A stretch of DNA of 64,000 nt, from positions 1 through 64,000 of the forward strand of contig JACDGL010000002.1 in NCBI GenBank assembly GCA_013815385.1. The letters are read 5' to 3'. Below, piece by piece: positions 25,231-61,977 of the stretch. The stretch is from Taibaiella sp. (GTDB lineage: Bacteria; Bacteroidota; Bacteroidia; Chitinophagales; Chitinophagaceae). The notes under the pieces were generated by a model, which had not been told where the DNA came from, did not search any database, and saw only the letters and a list, made by a program, of their open reading frames with translations. Position 1 is the first letter of the stretch. Every line of letters starts with the position of its first letter. Position numbers and translations under genes: made by a program.

Positions 25231-26415
25231 ATGGCCCTTTCACTAAGAAGGAAGACAGATAAACCAAAAAAGAAGAAACCAGTGTGGCGCGAATGGCTGG
25301 ATGCAGCTTTATTTGCAATAATAGCAGCTACCATCATCCGTACTTTTTTTATAGAAGCCTATACCATACCTACCGGTTCTATGGAGGGCAGCCTATTGGT
25401 AAACGATTTTCTTTTTGTGAGCAAGATGTCGTACGGGCCACGCGTCCCTATGACCCCCCTGGCCATACCATTGGTACATAACTCCTTATTTGGCAACAAA
25501 TCGTACACCGAGGCAGTACAATGGAAATATCACCGCCTGCCCGGCTTTGGGCATGTAGAGCGCTATGATGTGGTGGTATTTAATTACCCCGGCGGCGATA
25601 CGGTTATGGAAGAGCGCCCCGGCGACGATTATTATACCGCACTGAAAGGCGAGTTCAATAATGATCGGGAGCTGATGAAAAGCCGGTTTACAGTTATAAC
25701 CCGCCCGGTAGATAAAAAAGAGAATTACATAAAACGGTGCATGGGTGTGCCCGGCGATAAGTTGGAGGTAAGAAATACGGTGGTGTATGTAAATGACAAG
25801 CCCGCCCAAACCTACCCGCATCAGAAATTCCTCTATTCTGTAAAGACAAAAAGCTTTGGCATCTCAGAAGATTTCATGGAAGAGAATAATATAGACCGAT
25901 ATCCTGGTGGTAGTGATATTTATTATCTTGAAAATGACCAGGTAGATATGGTAAGGGCTTTGCTATCTGTTGATTCTGTAAAACAGGTCATCCTGCCTCC
26001 CGGCGTATTTGAGGGTGATGATGTATATCCTCAGGATCCTGCCCACTTTGCCTGGAACAGGGATAACTATGGTCCCATTACCTTACCAAAGGCGGGTACC
26101 ACCGTGCAGCTATCGCCTGAAAACATAGCGCTGTACAGAAGAGTGATCCGTAATTATGAGGGAAATATGCTGGAAGAGCGCGATGGTAAAATATTGATCA
26201 ACGGGCAGGTAGCTACCAGCTATACCTTTAAAATGAATTACTACTGGATGATGGGTGATAACAGGCATAACTCGCTCGATTCCCGCTACTGGGGTTTTGT
26301 ACCGGAAGATCATATAGTGGGTAAGGCGTGGTTTGTGTGGTTCAGTTATAAAAATACCATCAGCCACATACGCTGGAGCAGGTTGTTCCACGGCATTCAC
26401 TCACTCGAAAACTAA
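25231..26415 (+). CDS. lepB: Signal peptidase I, copy 1
   Basis: A 394-residue signal peptidase I that cleaves secretory leader peptides at the outer face of the inner membrane. One N-terminal membrane segment (about 24-43) precedes the catalytic Ser, S50 in YTIPTGSMEGSLLVND. The general base is K168 in ENYIKRCMGVPGDKLEV. Box E, MMGDNRHNSLDSRYWGFVP, is near the C-terminus. Between them lies a large insertion typical of Bacteroidota enzymes. The protein ends IHSLEN. A terminator at 26434 separates it from a close paralogue. Confidence 0.95.
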   Translation: MALSLRRKTDKPKKKKPVWREWLDAALFAIIAATIIRTFFIEAYTIPTGSMEGSLLVNDFLFVSKMSYGPRVPMTPLAIPLVHNSLFGNKSYTEAVQWKYHRLPGFGHVERYDVVVFNYPGGDTVMEERPGDDYYTALKGEFNNDRELMKSRFTVITRPVDKKENYIKRCMGVPGDKLEVRNTVVYVNDKPAQTYPHQKFLYSVKTKSFGISEDFMEENNIDRYPGGSDIYYLENDQVDMVRALLSVDSVKQVILPPGVFEGDDVYPQDPAHFAWNRDNYGPITLPKAGTTVQLSPENIALYRRVIRNYEGNMLEERDGKILINGQVATSYTFKMNYYWMMGDNRHNSLDSRYWGFVPEDHIVGKAWFVWFSYKNTISHIRWSRLFHGIHSLEN

Positions 26416-26556: not shown

Positions 26557-27735
26557 ATGTGGAATAAGAAAGTTAAAGTAGCTAAAAAGAAAAGGTCAGT
26601 AGGCCGCGAGTGGCTCAATGCAGCTATGTTCGCCATTATAACAGCTACACTTATCCGTACTTTCACTGTAGAAGCCTATACTATCCCTACCGGTTCTATG
26701 GAAGGCTCCCTGCTGGTTAATGATTACCTGTGTGTGAGCAAGCTTGCCTATGGGCCGCGTATCCCAATGACACCTCTTGCCCTGCCGTTAATGCATAATA
26801 CTATTCCGCTGTTAGGCTCCAGGTCCTATACAGATGCAGTAGAGTGGGGATATCACCGTCTGCCCGGCTTTGGCAGTGTTCAGCGCAATGATGTGGTTGT
26901 TTTCAACGGCCCCGCCGGCGATACTGCACTGGATGGCGAATCTGAAAAAGATTATCATTCTACACTGCGTGAATATAATAACGACCGTGCGCAGCTGGCA
27001 AATAACTACAAAGTGATAACCCGCCCGGTAGATAAGGAAGAGAATCTTATAAAAAGATGTATTGGCATAGCGGGAGATAAGATAGAAGTACGGAACACGG
27101 TAGTATATGTAAATGATAAACCCGCTGCTTCCTATCCCCACCAGAAATTCCTATACATAGTAAAGACAAAGGATTTCGGGCTGTCAGAGGATTTTCTGGA
27201 AGAGAACAACATCGAACGTTACCCCGCCGGCAATAATATTTACTTTCTTGAGAATGACCAGCTCGCTATGGTCCGCGCGTTACCATCGGTCGATTCTGTG
27301 AAACCCCTGGTGCTGCCCACCGGCATAGTGGAAGGTGACGATGTATATCCGCAAGACCCTGCCCACTTTGCCTGGAACAGGGATAACTACGGGCCCATAG
27401 CCATACCCAAAGCAGGTACTACAGTGCAACTCTCTCCCGATAATATAGCCATATATCGCAGGGTGATACGCAACTATGAAGGCAATAAGCTGGAGGAAAG
27501 GGATGGCAGAATATTTATTAATGACAAGGTTGCAAACAGCTATACCTTCAAAATGGATTACTACTGGATGATGGGCGATAACAGGCATAACTCGCTCGAT
27601 TCCCGCTACTGGGGTTTTGTGCCGGAAGATCATATAGTAGGCAAAGCATTGTTCGTGTGGTGGAGCTACAAAAATACGATGGCGCACATGCGTTGGAGCA
27701 GGTTGGGCCGCGGCATTCACTCTTTAGAGCAATAG
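26557..27735 (+). CDS. lepB: Signal peptidase I, copy 2 (tandem paralogue)
   Basis: A 392-residue signal peptidase I, closely similar along its whole length to the gene just upstream. The catalytic residues are kept: S47 in YTIPTGSMEGSLL and K166 in ENLIKRCIGIAGDKIEV, plus Box E MMGDNRHNSLDSRYWGF. It differs mostly in the insertion near residues 80-150 and in the extreme N-terminus (MWNKKVKVAKKKRSVGRE). Both copies look active. Its own promoter is suggested by the terminator at 26434 and a TTACTTTG motif just before its start. Confidence 0.95.
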   Translation: MWNKKVKVAKKKRSVGREWLNAAMFAIITATLIRTFTVEAYTIPTGSMEGSLLVNDYLCVSKLAYGPRIPMTPLALPLMHNTIPLLGSRSYTDAVEWGYHRLPGFGSVQRNDVVVFNGPAGDTALDGESEKDYHSTLREYNNDRAQLANNYKVITRPVDKEENLIKRCIGIAGDKIEVRNTVVYVNDKPAASYPHQKFLYIVKTKDFGLSEDFLEENNIERYPAGNNIYFLENDQLAMVRALPSVDSVKPLVLPTGIVEGDDVYPQDPAHFAWNRDNYGPIAIPKAGTTVQLSPDNIAIYRRVIRNYEGNKLEERDGRIFINDKVANSYTFKMDYYWMMGDNRHNSLDSRYWGFVPEDHIVGKALFVWWSYKNTMAHMRWSRLGRGIHSLEQ

Positions 27736-27828: not shown

Positions 27829-28944
27829 ATGCGGCTGAATATGCCAGATACAAAGACGAAGAAAGACACCACCAAAGTTCTATTCGACAGAGATAAAAGG
27901 ACTATATTAGAATCTGTAGCACAAGCCCAGTTCATAGCATTCGCCCCATACGTTTTTCAGGCTTCGGTAATACTTCGCGATAGCGGTGCACTCAGGCACC
28001 TGGAACAACAAGGCGATAAAGGCGCTACTATAAATGAGATAGCCGCACATATAGATATGTCTCACTATGCTGCACGGGTACTGCTCGAGGCTTCCCTTGG
28101 CATTGGCCTCGCGTTTAGAAAAGATGGGAAATATTATTTGACCAAAACAGGGGATATATTTATCAATAACAGAATGACGCGCATCAATACGGATTTCATG
28201 CGCGATGTGTGTTATGATGGTGCGCAGGACCTGAAAGATTCCCTTACAGATGGCAAGCCGCGCGGGCTAAGGCATTTAGGCGACTGGGATACAATATACC
28301 AGGGACTGGATACTATGAGGCAGCCGGCACGCAATAGCTGGTTTGCTTTTGACCACCATTATTCCGACAATGTATTTCGTGAAGCGCTGTCGCTGATTTT
28401 TGAAAAACCGGTTACTAACATATTAGATATAGGTGCCAATACCGGCAAGTGGGCGTTGCAATGCCTGGCCCACGACCCTAACGTGCGTATGGGCCTGGTA
28501 GACTTGCCGGGGCTGCTTGGCATAGCAGAGCAAACAGTTACGAACGCAGGCTACAGGGAACGCGTTACGCTGCACCCAACTGATATGCTGGATACTACAA
28601 CTACATTGCCGGCAGGCTACGATGTTATATTTATGAGCCAGTTCCTTGCCTGCTTTGCAGATGAGGAAATACTGGCCATACTACAGAAATGCCACCGGGC
28701 GCTGCCGGAAAACGGCAGAATATTTGTCAACGACACCTTCTGGGACAGGCAACGGTTGGAAGCTTCCGCCTTCAGCCTGCAAATGACCTCTTTATATTTT
28801 ACCAGCATGGCCAATGGCAATAGCCAGATGTATGATAGCGAAGTGTATGTAAACCTGATAAAAAGGGCCGGGTTTGAGATAGTACGCTTTTTTGATAAAG
28901 TTGGCTATACGCACACTTTATTTGAACTAAGGAAATCAGCATAA
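27829..28944 (+). CDS. SAM-dependent methyltransferase with winged-helix N-terminus
   Basis: A 371-residue class I methyltransferase. The N-terminal part (about 40-120; TINEIAAHIDMSHYAARVLLEASLGIGL) resembles the dimerisation/winged-helix domain of small-molecule O-methyltransferases. SAM motif I is ILDIGANTGKW with DIGANTG at 200-206; motif II is near 220 (MGLVDLPGLL), and further blocks are VIFMSQFLACF and NGRIFVNDTFW. The start could be either of two ATGs (27829 or 27841). Next comes a halogenase-like flavoprotein, a pairing I associate with aryl-polyene/flexirubin-type pigment clusters of Bacteroidota. Substrate unknown; an aromatic acyl intermediate is an inference. Confidence 0.88.
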   Translation: MRLNMPDTKTKKDTTKVLFDRDKRTILESVAQAQFIAFAPYVFQASVILRDSGALRHLEQQGDKGATINEIAAHIDMSHYAARVLLEASLGIGLAFRKDGKYYLTKTGDIFINNRMTRINTDFMRDVCYDGAQDLKDSLTDGKPRGLRHLGDWDTIYQGLDTMRQPARNSWFAFDHHYSDNVFREALSLIFEKPVTNILDIGANTGKWALQCLAHDPNVRMGLVDLPGLLGIAEQTVTNAGYRERVTLHPTDMLDTTTTLPAGYDVIFMSQFLACFADEEILAILQKCHRALPENGRIFVNDTFWDRQRLEASAFSLQMTSLYFTSMANGNSQMYDSEVYVNLIKRAGFEIVRFFDKVGYTHTLFELRKSA

Positions 28945-29002
28945 TTAATGCTGGAAGTATAGAACGAAAATGGTATTTTTAAATAATAGAATAGCATAGT
29001 AT

Positions 29003-30241
29003 ATGCAACACGAAGTAGATGTACTGGTAATTGGAGCAGGCCCATCAGGGTCAGTTGCAGCAGCCATTATTCACAAAGCCGGCCTGTCGGTACAGGTAGT
29101 GGAAAAAATGCGTTTCCCGCGCTTTGTAATAGGCGAAAGCCTGCTGCCAAGATGTATGGAAGCACTGGATGAAGCAGGATTTTTACCGGCCCTTAAAGCC
29201 AAAGGCTTCCAGCAAAAAGATGGGGCAAAATTTGTTTGGGACGAACTGGTATGCGACTTTAATTTTTCGCAGCAATTCACCCATGGCTGGCAATGGACAT
29301 GGCAGGTGCCACGCGCAGACTTTGACAAGGTACTTGCTGATGAGTGTGAGAGCAGGGGCATCGATATAGCATACGAAACAGAAGTGATCAATGTAGTCAT
29401 TAACGAAGATGGCCATTCGGTTACTACCGTGAAACAGAAAGATGGGACTACCGATACTATAAAGGCAAAGTTCATAGTAGATGGCAGCGGGTATGGCCGC
29501 GTATTGCCTACCCTGTTCGGCATGAACAATGAATCCAGACAGCATACGCGCAAAGCGGTCTTCTGCCACATTACCGACCAGCATCGCGAAAATTATGTAG
29601 AGCCAAACCGTATCATCATAGGGGTACATGACCCTGAAACATGGATATGGGTCATCCCGTTCTCCAACGGTAACACGTCAGTAGGCTATGTAGGCAAGCC
29701 CGAATTTTTCGAGCTTTTTCCTGGCGATGCTGAAGAGCAGTTTCGCGCTTTGTTAGCTGCCAACGCAGTACTTGCTCATCGTTTTGCAGATACAGAATTT
29801 ATATGGGACCAGCCAAGGTCGCTGCAGGCATGGAGCAGCACTACCGATACATTTTATGGCAATGGATTTGTACTTACAGGCAATGTAACCGAGTTCCTTG
29901 ATCCTGTATTTTCATCCGGCGTTACGCTCGCAGTTACCTCTGCGCAGAAAGCAGCCAATCTTGTCATCAAACACTTTAATGGCGAGCAGGTAGACTGGCA
30001 AAAAGATTATATGGATATCATGCTGCGGGGGATTGACGTGTTCCGCACCTATGTAAATGCATGGTACGACGGCGACCTGTTCGATATCTTCTTTTCAGAG
30101 CAGCGCGATTCTGCAATAATGGATAAAATATGCTCTATACTGGCCGGCTATGTATGGGATGAGCGTAATCCATTTGTAAAAAACCATGAAAAGAATATCA
30201 GAAATCTTAGCCGCTATCTTCGTTCCTTAAAAAACGTATAA
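29003..30241 (+). CDS. Flavin-dependent halogenase-like oxidoreductase
   Basis: A 412-residue flavoprotein. The FAD-binding loop VIGAGPSG is at 9-16. Two motifs of flavin-dependent halogenases are present: WIWVIP at 214-219 (WxWxIP) and FLDPVFSSG at 298-306 (Fx.Px.Sx.G). RFVIGESLLPR near 40-50 is typical of this group. The lysine that guides hypohalous acid in tryptophan halogenases (around residue 79) is not certain here; K76 is the nearest. It could be a halogenase, or a hydroxylase/reductase of the same fold. It lies between the methyltransferase and a ketoacyl-synthase-like gene. Confidence 0.85.
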   Translation: MQHEVDVLVIGAGPSGSVAAAIIHKAGLSVQVVEKMRFPRFVIGESLLPRCMEALDEAGFLPALKAKGFQQKDGAKFVWDELVCDFNFSQQFTHGWQWTWQVPRADFDKVLADECESRGIDIAYETEVINVVINEDGHSVTTVKQKDGTTDTIKAKFIVDGSGYGRVLPTLFGMNNESRQHTRKAVFCHITDQHRENYVEPNRIIIGVHDPETWIWVIPFSNGNTSVGYVGKPEFFELFPGDAEEQFRALLAANAVLAHRFADTEFIWDQPRSLQAWSSTTDTFYGNGFVLTGNVTEFLDPVFSSGVTLAVTSAQKAANLVIKHFNGEQVDWQKDYMDIMLRGIDVFRTYVNAWYDGDLFDIFFSEQRDSAIMDKICSILAGYVWDERNPFVKNHEKNIRNLSRYLRSLKNV

Positions 30242-30285
30242 ACGGCATACAAATTGCATTACTATACTTATAATAGCAATCAGCA

Positions 30286-30885
30286 TTGATAATAAACCAC
30301 TGGATCAGGATAACAAAGGAAGAGGTAAAAAAAGATAATGCAGTAATACATGAATTATCTGCCTCCCTTAGCACCGCAGAAGATATTTATAAAGCACAGG
30401 GCTATACTTATCTTAAGTTCTTTAAAATGGATATTTTATCGAAATGGGCTTGGTTCAGTGCAGAATGTTTATTAAATTGTGATAACCAATTGCTTTATAA
30501 CTCATTGGATAAGAACAAGATAGGGATCGTATTATCTACTTCACACGGTTGTCTGCAAGCGGACAAGAGCTTTAACGCTACCCTCGCCACTATTCCCAGT
30601 CCTGCAGTTTTTGTTTATACACTACCTAATATAATGCTGGGTGAGTTATGTATAAGGCATGGCTTTAAAGGAGAACAGTTTTGCCTGGAAAATGAAGTTT
30701 TTGATCCCGAACAAACACACTTCCTTGTAAGCGATTTGATGGAAAAAAGAGAGGTGGATGCCTGCCTGTGCGGATGGGTAGATGTTACTAAAGAGGAAAA
30801 AGATATTTGCCTGTTCTGGATTACAAAAGATAGTAAAGGAAAGGAATTTAGCCCTGCGGCAATGCAGGAAATTTATAACAACTGA
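30286..30885 (+). CDS. Ketoacyl-synthase-like protein without visible catalytic Cys
   Basis: A 199-residue protein starting at TTG 30286 that resembles the N-terminal half of a beta-ketoacyl synthase: IGIVLSTSHGCLQADKSF at 79-96, IPSPAVFVYTLPNIMLGE at 103-120, IRHGFKGEQF at 123-132, and the VDACLCGWVDV strand at 157-167. Where KS enzymes have the nucleophile Cys (between the Gly-rich strand and the next helix), this protein reads LENEVFDPEQ, so the Cys appears absent. It would then be a non-catalytic partner (chain-length-factor-like) or a vestige. Full-length KS proteins are about 400 residues. Co-oriented with methyltransferase and halogenase-like genes. Confidence 0.6.
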   Translation: MIINHWIRITKEEVKKDNAVIHELSASLSTAEDIYKAQGYTYLKFFKMDILSKWAWFSAECLLNCDNQLLYNSLDKNKIGIVLSTSHGCLQADKSFNATLATIPSPAVFVYTLPNIMLGELCIRHGFKGEQFCLENEVFDPEQTHFLVSDLMEKREVDACLCGWVDVTKEEKDICLFWITKDSKGKEFSPAAMQEIYNN

Positions 30886-30909
30886 GGATATAAAAAGGAT
30901 CTAACTGAC

Positions 30910-31167
30910 ATGAGAAAGTTGCAACTGATAAAACCGTGGGGATTGCGTACAGTACGTCAAAGGCTGAACGACACAACTGACCTGAAGGTGATGGAGGGAA
31001 CAACATATATGCCTTGTATGGGCCCAGTAGCTACAGATATAATAGCCGAAGGGTACCTTGCTGATTCAGATATCAGGCAGTGCATAGCTTTTAATGTTAA
31101 TCCCGCTACACAGGGGCCTCGTGCAGAATTTATACACACATCTGCTATTCAAAAAATAAGAGGATAG
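30910..31167 (+). CDS. Unknown 85-residue protein, end of mini-cluster
   Basis: A small soluble protein with no recognised family. It starts 25 bp after the ketoacyl-synthase-like gene and appears to be the last gene of that unit. It contains a short basic N-terminus (MRKLQLIKPWGLRTVRQRL), a central segment with single Cys in YMPCMGPVA, and a Cys in IRQCIAFNVNP. There is no signal peptide. No function can be assigned; its place suggests a role with the pigment-like genes. Confidence 0.5.
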   Translation: MRKLQLIKPWGLRTVRQRLNDTTDLKVMEGTTYMPCMGPVATDIIAEGYLADSDIRQCIAFNVNPATQGPRAEFIHTSAIQKIRG

Positions 31168-31183: not shown

Positions 31184-31203
31184 TGTACCAAAGGCTTGGT
31201 ACA
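31184..31203. terminator. Inverted repeat between convergent genes
   Basis: TGTACCAA and TTGGTACA (8-bp stem, AGGC loop) between the convergent gene ends at 31167 and 31266. No long T-run, so a terminator role is tentative. Confidence 0.35.
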
Positions 31204-60591: not shown

Positions 60592-61977
60592 TTATTGTTT
60601 TAGTTTGGATATTACGGCCTTAAACTTTCCATTTGCAGTAAGTGGAATTTCACTTACTTCTTCTATATCTACGCGAATGTCGCCCAACTGACTGGTCATT
60701 CGCTGTATTATTAAAGCTCTTTCTGCTGCGCTGAGTTGCTTCGTAATTACAACCCGAATTACTATGTGCTCTGTACTTTCCTGTATTATCTGCCCTTGCG
60801 CTATAGATGGGATGTTGATAAAGATACCGTGAAAGCGGACCATTTTTCTGCCATCCCTACCTATTACTATATCTTCTATTCTACCTGCTATTTCCTTTAC
60901 TACCGTCATTTTTCTCCCACATGAACAGTCCTGCTCTGATAGGGTTATTCTATCTCCGATACGATAACGTATCAATGGCTGATCATAATTCAGAAAACCC
61001 GTACATACTAATTCACCTGTGCCGCCCGGCCCGACTGGGTTTCCTTGTTCATCCAGCACTTCCAGCAATGCCATATCAGGGCTCATATGCAAACTCCCCA
61101 TTTCACATTCACTTATAAGGCCACATGCTTCCACACCACTCCAGCTATCGTATGTTTTGCACCCATACACATTTTTAAATGTTGCGCGCATTTCATCTGT
61201 TAGCTTCTCACTTGAGGTTATTACAGCTTTAAGTTGAGGAGTAGAGATGCCCGCCTCTTCAATGAAATGAGCCAGAAAATAATTGCTCATCGCATATCCC
61301 GTCATATACTCAAGCTTGTGCCTGCGGATGGCCTTTACATATTCAGGCGCAGTGTGTGCAGAGATATGATATGCTGAGAAGTATACTTGTTTCTCGGCAA
61401 GGTTATAACGGTAATAAGGCCCTTTAGCCACACTATCCGGCAATACACGTCTACCTCCTATCATGCCACGTGGTGTATACCTATCTACACCAGCCCAGTG
61501 CCTGATACGGGCCTCGAAGCCTGCACTCCATTGCTGGTGCATGCTTGGTGAATAATATATGCGCGAGGGTGTGCCTGTGCTACCACTACTTGCATGGAAC
61601 TCCCCTTTTTGCTTTTGAGAAGATAACAGTATTGTATCGCCATATTTACGAACCTCATCTTTTTCAAGATAAGGAAGCTTTGCTATATCTGAGAGTTGTA
61701 TATTTTTTAGTTGTTCAGCTGTGATCCCCGCCCGAGTATATTTTTCTTTGTAGAATGGTACAGTTTCAAAAGCATGCAGTAATGTTTTCCTCAATTCATG
61801 CGTTTGATATTCATCCCATTGGGGTGTAGTAAAAGATTCCCTTTCCTTATAAGCCTTCAATTCTTCTTTAAAGTTTCCACCAAACCTCTTTTTTCTCCAG
61901 CCATACCCATAGGCAGATACCATGACATTCTGAAAGAAAACCGGTGTGCGCTTATATAACTGTTGTAAAAAAGCCAT
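60592..61977 (-). CDS. PaaK/CapK-like adenylate-forming enzyme
   Basis: A 461-residue adenylate-forming enzyme of the phenylacetate-CoA ligase/CapK group. ATP-binding segment HASSGSTGTPSRIYYS is near 129-144; further SWSGVEACGLISECE near 275-289, LIRYRIGDRI and a C-terminal domain beginning GRIEDIVIGRDGRKMV. In capsule loci such proteins are thought to activate small carboxylic acids that decorate sugars or link repeat units. Its ends overlap: start 61977 is shared with the asnB stop. Substrate unknown. Confidence 0.88.
   Translation of the reverse strand: MAFLQQLYKRTPVFFQNVMVSAYGYGWRKKRFGGNFKEELKAYKERESFTTPQWDEYQTHELRKTLLHAFETVPFYKEKYTRAGITAEQLKNIQLSDIAKLPYLEKDEVRKYGDTILLSSQKQKGEFHASSGSTGTPSRIYYSPSMHQQWSAGFEARIRHWAGVDRYTPRGMIGGRRVLPDSVAKGPYYRYNLAEKQVYFSAYHISAHTAPEYVKAIRRHKLEYMTGYAMSNYFLAHFIEEAGISTPQLKAVITSSEKLTDEMRATFKNVYGCKTYDSWSGVEACGLISECEMGSLHMSPDMALLEVLDEQGNPVGPGGTGELVCTGFLNYDQPLIRYRIGDRITLSEQDCSCGRKMTVVKEIAGRIEDIVIGRDGRKMVRFHGIFINIPSIAQGQIIQESTEHIVIRVVITKQLSAAERALIIQRMTSQLGDIRVDIEEVSEIPLTANGKFKAVISKLKQ

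Follow-up and report, generated by a model that had tools for sequence, protein, structure and literature searches.

Four open reading frames (ORFs) follow one another at positions 27829-31167 of the window, by which we mean the whole stretch of DNA analysed here (64,000 nucleotides at the start of contig JACDGL010000002.1 of Taibaiella sp.). All four are read from the + strand, with intergenic gaps of 58, 44 and 24 bp: flxJ (27829..28944) encodes a 371-amino-acid (aa) S-adenosylmethionine methyltransferase of the FlxJ family, which matches NCBIfam NF053543; flxK (29003..30241) encodes a 412-aa flavin adenine dinucleotide (FAD) protein of the flavin-dependent halogenase superfamily, with a Pfam Trp_halogenase match; flxL (30286..30885, with a TTG start) encodes a 199-aa half-size ketosynthase (KS)-like protein, recognised by family alignment, profile and fold; the fourth, ORF85 (30910..31167), encodes a small protein of 85 aa. 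These are real genes, ORF85 probably included. A first-pass annotation of the sequence had put four genes on one strand here, and the coordinates, common direction and conserved order and content have held up. It had also pictured a compact, self-contained cluster with an unclear product. That picture is ruled out, because most of the remaining genes of a pathway lie elsewhere in the genome: the segment is very probably the flxJ-flxK-flxL portion of a near-complete pathway for flexirubin (a dialkylresorcinol esterified with an aryl polyene), the genes of which are spread over seven or more loci of the genome.

Far from turning up singly in unrelated contexts, these genes keep company in relatives. 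A scan of genome contigs for relatives of FlxK returned 19 loci; FlxL follows FlxK in 18 of them, and in those 18 FlxJ precedes FlxK wherever the contig reaches. (In the exception, L038, FlxK lies near flx-type KS and acyl carrier protein (ACP) genes.) FlxJ of the window is 43-62% identical to the FlxJ proteins beside FlxK in relatives, many of which also share the window's neighbours lepB, a FAD/NAD-binding reductase gene and kbl. Other Chitinophagaceae flx clusters (L074-L077, L080-L082) have the order KS, FlxJ, FlxK, FlxL, often continued by ACP, KS and chain-length factor (CLF). This order agrees with the flx lettering of Chitinophaga pinensis, in which FlxC, FlxI, FlxL, FlxN and FlxO are KS-like and FlxF and FlxS are dehydratases (PMC3992019); by that lettering and the order of cluster L076, C. 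pinensis flxK would be the same flavoprotein, placed between flxJ and flxL. (A technical note: the flx locus L026, which hardly differs from L024, carries the label "Azovibrio restrictus", a name from the Pseudomonadota, probably through a binning error.)

Where, then, is the rest of the pathway? It lies at six other loci of the same genome. The markers with curated NCBIfam cut-offs (in bits: FlxA 700, FlxB 340, FlxY 520, DarB 550, LolA2 125, LolB2 60) all exceed them: flxA, for tyrosine ammonia-lyase (TAL; NF053541, 770 bits), and flxB (386 bits) are on C3; flxY, for 4-coumarate-CoA ligase (NF053551, 635.6 bits), is at C30:222853-224118, ~190 kb from the window segment; darB (574.7 bits) is on C5; the flexirubin LolA2 and LolB2 genes (206 and 119 bits) are on C23. 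Adjoining darB is the gene of a 308-aa DarA-like protein, 58% identical to the DarB neighbour in genome G012 and 40% to that in G004; no family model matched this protein, and its name rests on position. Beside LolA2/LolB2 on C23 are a KS (77% identical to a KS of a reference flx cluster), an ACP, an acyltransferase, a deacetylase, a glycosyltransferase and an MMPL exporter; C29 has a FabZ-like dehydratase and a KS, and C39 an ACP, a KS and a CLF. The genome thus holds, outside the window segment, three further KS genes, two ACPs, a CLF, a dehydratase and exporter genes. The initial remark that a full KS, an ACP and DarA/DarB are missing is correct for the locus; full-length KS, ACP and DarB/DarA-like proteins are found at other loci of the genome.

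The same association is seen across 246 genomes of the family: FlxK occurs in 69, FlxA in 75, DarB in 76 and all three in 62 (Fisher p: FlxK-FlxA 2e-43, FlxK-DarB 2e-40, FlxA-DarB 9e-48; the counts ignore phylogeny, so that these values overstate independence). A flexirubin- or aryl-polyene-like pathway had been guessed at the outset, and the FlxJ-family match, the flx-cluster gene order and this co-occurrence (p ~1e-40) bear the guess out. The genes that co-occur need not be neighbours. In the clade of the window's FlxK (FlxK at least 64% identical to it), 17 genomes have flxK, flxA and darB, and in all 17 the three genes are separated by over 60 kb or lie on separate contigs; of the other 45 three-gene genomes, 28 have FlxK and FlxA no more than 60 kb from each other. 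Contig breaks could inflate apparent dispersal, but the dispersal is not an assembly effect, since genome G194 is a single contig, with FlxA at 0.19 Mb, FlxK at 0.35 Mb and DarB at 1.74 Mb; G118 and G161 likewise have FlxK and FlxA on one contig with hundreds of kb between them. In C. pinensis the flexirubin genes form two loci (flxA-flxY, Cpin_1853-1877; darB/darA, Cpin_6850-6851; PMC3992019). The window genome shares with it homologues of FlxA, FlxB, FlxY, DarB and LolA2/LolB2 and the flxJ-flxK-flxL order (for C. pinensis, as deduced through L074-L077 and L080-L082); it differs in having at least seven loci and in not having flxN/flxO behind flxL. We are dealing with part of a known pathway, one whose genes this clade keeps in an unusual, dispersed arrangement. 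A poorly aimed search of the open literature turned up no earlier description of flexirubin genes spread in this way. Flexirubin serves as a chemotaxonomic marker, and those who look for its genes usually look for a single cluster; with the pathway in pieces across a whole clade, cluster-based mining would under-call it.

The identities of the genes, their order, their co-occurrence and their dispersal are shown by the analysis; the pathway, as put together here mostly from homology, would run as follows, and the window organism presumably makes the pigment. FlxA and FlxY would make 4-coumaroyl-CoA (their activities have been shown for C. pinensis in PMC3992019, where they are the sole flx proteins characterised biochemically). 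KS enzymes, with ACPs, the FlxB reductase and dehydratases, would extend 4-coumaroyl to a polyene, FlxL serving as the half-size, non-catalytic, CLF-like partner of a KS. FlxJ would methylate the aryl ring and FlxK would carry out a flavin-dependent tailoring step in that branch. DarA/DarB would supply the resorcinol that is esterified with the polyene, and LolA2/LolB2, the acyltransferase, deacetylase, glycosyltransferase and MMPL proteins would place the pigment in the outer membrane. FlxJ is probably the C-methyltransferase acting on the ring of the polyene's aryl head, an assignment that fits the methionine-derived methyl group on the tyrosine-derived ring of flexirubin (PMC3992019).

FlxJ and FlxK travel together. 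FlxJ is present in 67 of the family's genomes and FlxK in 69; 64 have both, adjacent in 57. FlxA-positive genomes tend to have both (62) or neither (8), with only 5 having one of the two (p 4e-7); one genome scored as lacking FlxK, G170, does have a FlxK match adjoining FlxJ. Five of the eight with neither have a compact cluster, flxY-A-B-DH-KS-flxL-KS-CLF-DH (L116, L118/119, L120/121, L126, L127). Retention of flxL without flxJ and flxK in these five clusters speaks for flxL as a core gene, and flxJ/flxK may be regarded as a coupled, dispensable tailoring cassette. The split between this core (flxY-A-B-KS-flxL-KS-CLF) and the flxJ-flxK cassette makes the ring-tailoring steps directly testable.

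What does FlxK do? Both motifs singled out in the first-pass annotation are present, WIWVIP (residues 214-219) and FLDPVFSSG (residues 298-306), and the Pfam match to Trp_halogenase (4e-26) is accompanied by one to FAD_binding_3. Among 36 FlxK homologues, W.W.IP is kept in 36, FLDP.FSSG in 35, and Lys72 is invariant. Lys72, the conserved Lys downstream of the GESLLP motif, aligns with a Lys of CmlS and of 8zop; we take it to be the halogenase catalytic Lys. Against the PDB, FlxK aligns over residues 3-406 with 3nix, a flavoprotein/dehydrogenase, at 496 bits, followed by CmlS at only 147 bits and then by other halogenases; homology to geranylgeranyl reductases alone is thereby ruled out. FlxK shares its WxWxIP, FxDPxFSxG and Lys positions with the phenolic/pyrrole flavin-dependent halogenases CmlS, PltA and ChlB4, and differs from CmlS-type halogenases in having no linked halogenated product.

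Within the flexirubin assignment, one might suppose that FlxK works as a halogenase and chlorinates the flexirubin aryl ring while FlxJ methylates the neighbouring position. The near-universal retention of the motifs and of Lys72, the tailoring-type distribution of FlxK together with FlxJ, and the chlorinated flexirubins on record (PMC3992019) speak for this; against it stands the flexirubin of LB-grown C. pinensis, C43H54O4, which is methylated and has no chlorine (PMC3992019). On balance we hold chlorination to be a serious possibility that falls somewhat short of probable. An enzyme with all of the halogenase residues in a pathway whose characterised product has no halogen might instead perform cryptic halogenation or some other flavin-dependent step coupled to methylation by FlxJ, a suggestion that we make tentatively and regard as rather doubtful.

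FlxL had been called a "truncated" KS-like protein. It is nothing of the kind: truncation or decay of a KS is ruled out, because FlxL belongs to an intact, conserved family of complete proteins of ~200 aa (24 invariant alignment columns in 23 sequences). The single sequence has only weak FabF similarity and no match when searched against the PDB. The family profile matches KS II over residues ~70-198 (E 2.6e-4), the region around the nucleophilic Cys, whose position is not Cys in FlxL. The AlphaFold2 model (pLDDT 89) has the ishigamide CLF as its nearest fold (VIA Z 15.1; 3.5 A over 185 residues), the CLF/KS match extends over the whole length, and Foldseek hits include the ApeC chains 6qsp_B and 7f28_C; KS II folds reach similar scores, so that CLF and KS are not told apart by fold alone. 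Aryl polyene synthesis is known to use half-size CLFs that have a single thiolase domain (PMC8358021). Like ApeC of the ApeO-ApeC pair of KS and half-size CLF (6QSP; Acinetobacter ApeO-ApeC, PMC8358021), FlxL has ~200 aa, one thiolase domain and no catalytic Cys; it differs in sequence (12-14% identity), and the systems differ in starter, 4-hydroxybenzoyl for ApeO-ApeC and, for flexirubin, 4-coumaroyl, derived from tyrosine. Taken together, this makes it quite likely that FlxL is a non-catalytic, half-size, CLF-like partner of a KS, with FlxI and FlxN as candidate partners; what was called a truncated ketosynthase is probably a chain-length factor of half size.

In most relatives a full-length KS (flxN) and a CLF-like protein (flxO) come directly after FlxL; Taibaiella soli, a member of the clade, carries the relatives' version of the locus (L025). 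The KS and CLF are absent there in the window and in L029 and L030; indeed the whole ACP-KS-CLF run, flxM-flxN-flxO, is missing from its place right after flxL at the window locus. (That run is the typical arrangement; it varies among relatives and was not taken as defining.) An ORF85-like gene sits in the flxL-flxN interval of L032 and L130, which suggests that flxN and flxO once followed ORF85 in the window and have been lost there. Has the unit simply moved to C39? This was considered first and is unsupported. The C39 KS has an intact Cys-His-His triad and the motif ISTACSSSA, as in FlxN, and the C39 CLF lacks the triad and has the motif YVHRG, as in FlxO; however, a tree built from 47 KS sequences places the C39 KS outside FlxN together with a second, darB-linked KS group (support 98/92). 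The C39 CLF is on a very long branch of the CLF tree (support 1), without placement. The C39 unit is likely a diverged or paralogous one that does the work of FlxN/FlxO. (A second ACP-KS(-CLF) unit, apart from flxN/flxO in the KS tree, occurs near darB in L118 and L120, of genomes G080 and G120, and in L096, of G004.)

Several observations weigh against the flexirubin assignment. There is no flxN/flxO orthologue after flxL; the position of the C39 KS implies an elongation set different from that of the reference; the window genome, G000, is a draft assembly in 39 contigs; a 217-aa reference protein (flxG position) was not found in it, with a query that had no positive control; the thioesterase match is weak (29%); and FlxJ (443.5 bits, E 4.6e-133) is below the curated NF053543 cut-off of 560 bits. 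The last point is tempered by the fact that no FlxJ homologue in the family's 246 genomes reaches 560 bits, complete flx clusters included, so that the cut-off is strict for this family.

Can another reading make more of these gaps? One could imagine a stand-alone aryl-polyene-like pathway other than flexirubin, made up of the four genes and the acpP/fabF pair that had been pointed out 3 kb away. The pair is there, and the lack of flxN/flxO behind flxL might be turned to the same account. Yet acpP/fabF looks like a housekeeping pair, its fabF being alone on a long branch of the KS tree; FlxA, FlxB, FlxY, DarB, LolA2 and LolB2 markers are all in the window genome; and FlxK tracks FlxA and DarB over the 246 genomes. 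All this makes a separate pathway exceedingly improbable. Alternatively, the pathway is being lost from the lineage and the window segment is a non-functional, decaying remnant, with the missing KS and CLF as the sign of loss. For a remnant it is well preserved: flxJ, flxK and flxL are full length with conserved motifs, the C39 KS and CLF retain the residues noted above, and most of the remaining pathway is intact. We think decay very unlikely, and return to the flexirubin segment for its fourth gene and its surroundings.

Comparison of sequences indicates that ORF85 is probably a genuine, if weakly conserved, gene. Its first ~19 residues are common to only two other loci, the ORFs between flxL and flxN in L032 and L130. 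Between the window and L032 there are 16 substitutions in 19 codons, distributed 4/1/11 by codon position (11 at the third); L032 and L130 differ by 13/12/26. Searches of the window proteins gave ORF85 no Pfam or NCBIfam match, and its being an ACP relic is ruled out: it has no phosphopantetheine motif and no ACP match. Just past it, at 31184-31203, a perfect 8-bp inverted repeat, TGTACCAA-AGGC-TTGGTACA, is seen by eye and was not called by the terminator scan; promoter and terminator scans returned no more than in shuffled sequence. Directly upstream of flxJ are tandem signal peptidase I genes (25231-26415 and 26557-27735), ~75% identical to each other; lepB-like genes also adjoin flxJ in many relatives. 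Further along the window, a 463-aa open frame on the - strand (60784-61821) matches the FlxY acyl-CoA ligase model weakly (65 and 33 bits, below cut-off). An open frame of 2033 aa on C6 of the same genome (L018, 7905-13991) contains a ketosynthase domain and gives a weak AMP-ligase match; it probably encodes a polyketide synthase (PKS) or nonribosomal peptide synthetase (NRPS)-PKS megasynthase.

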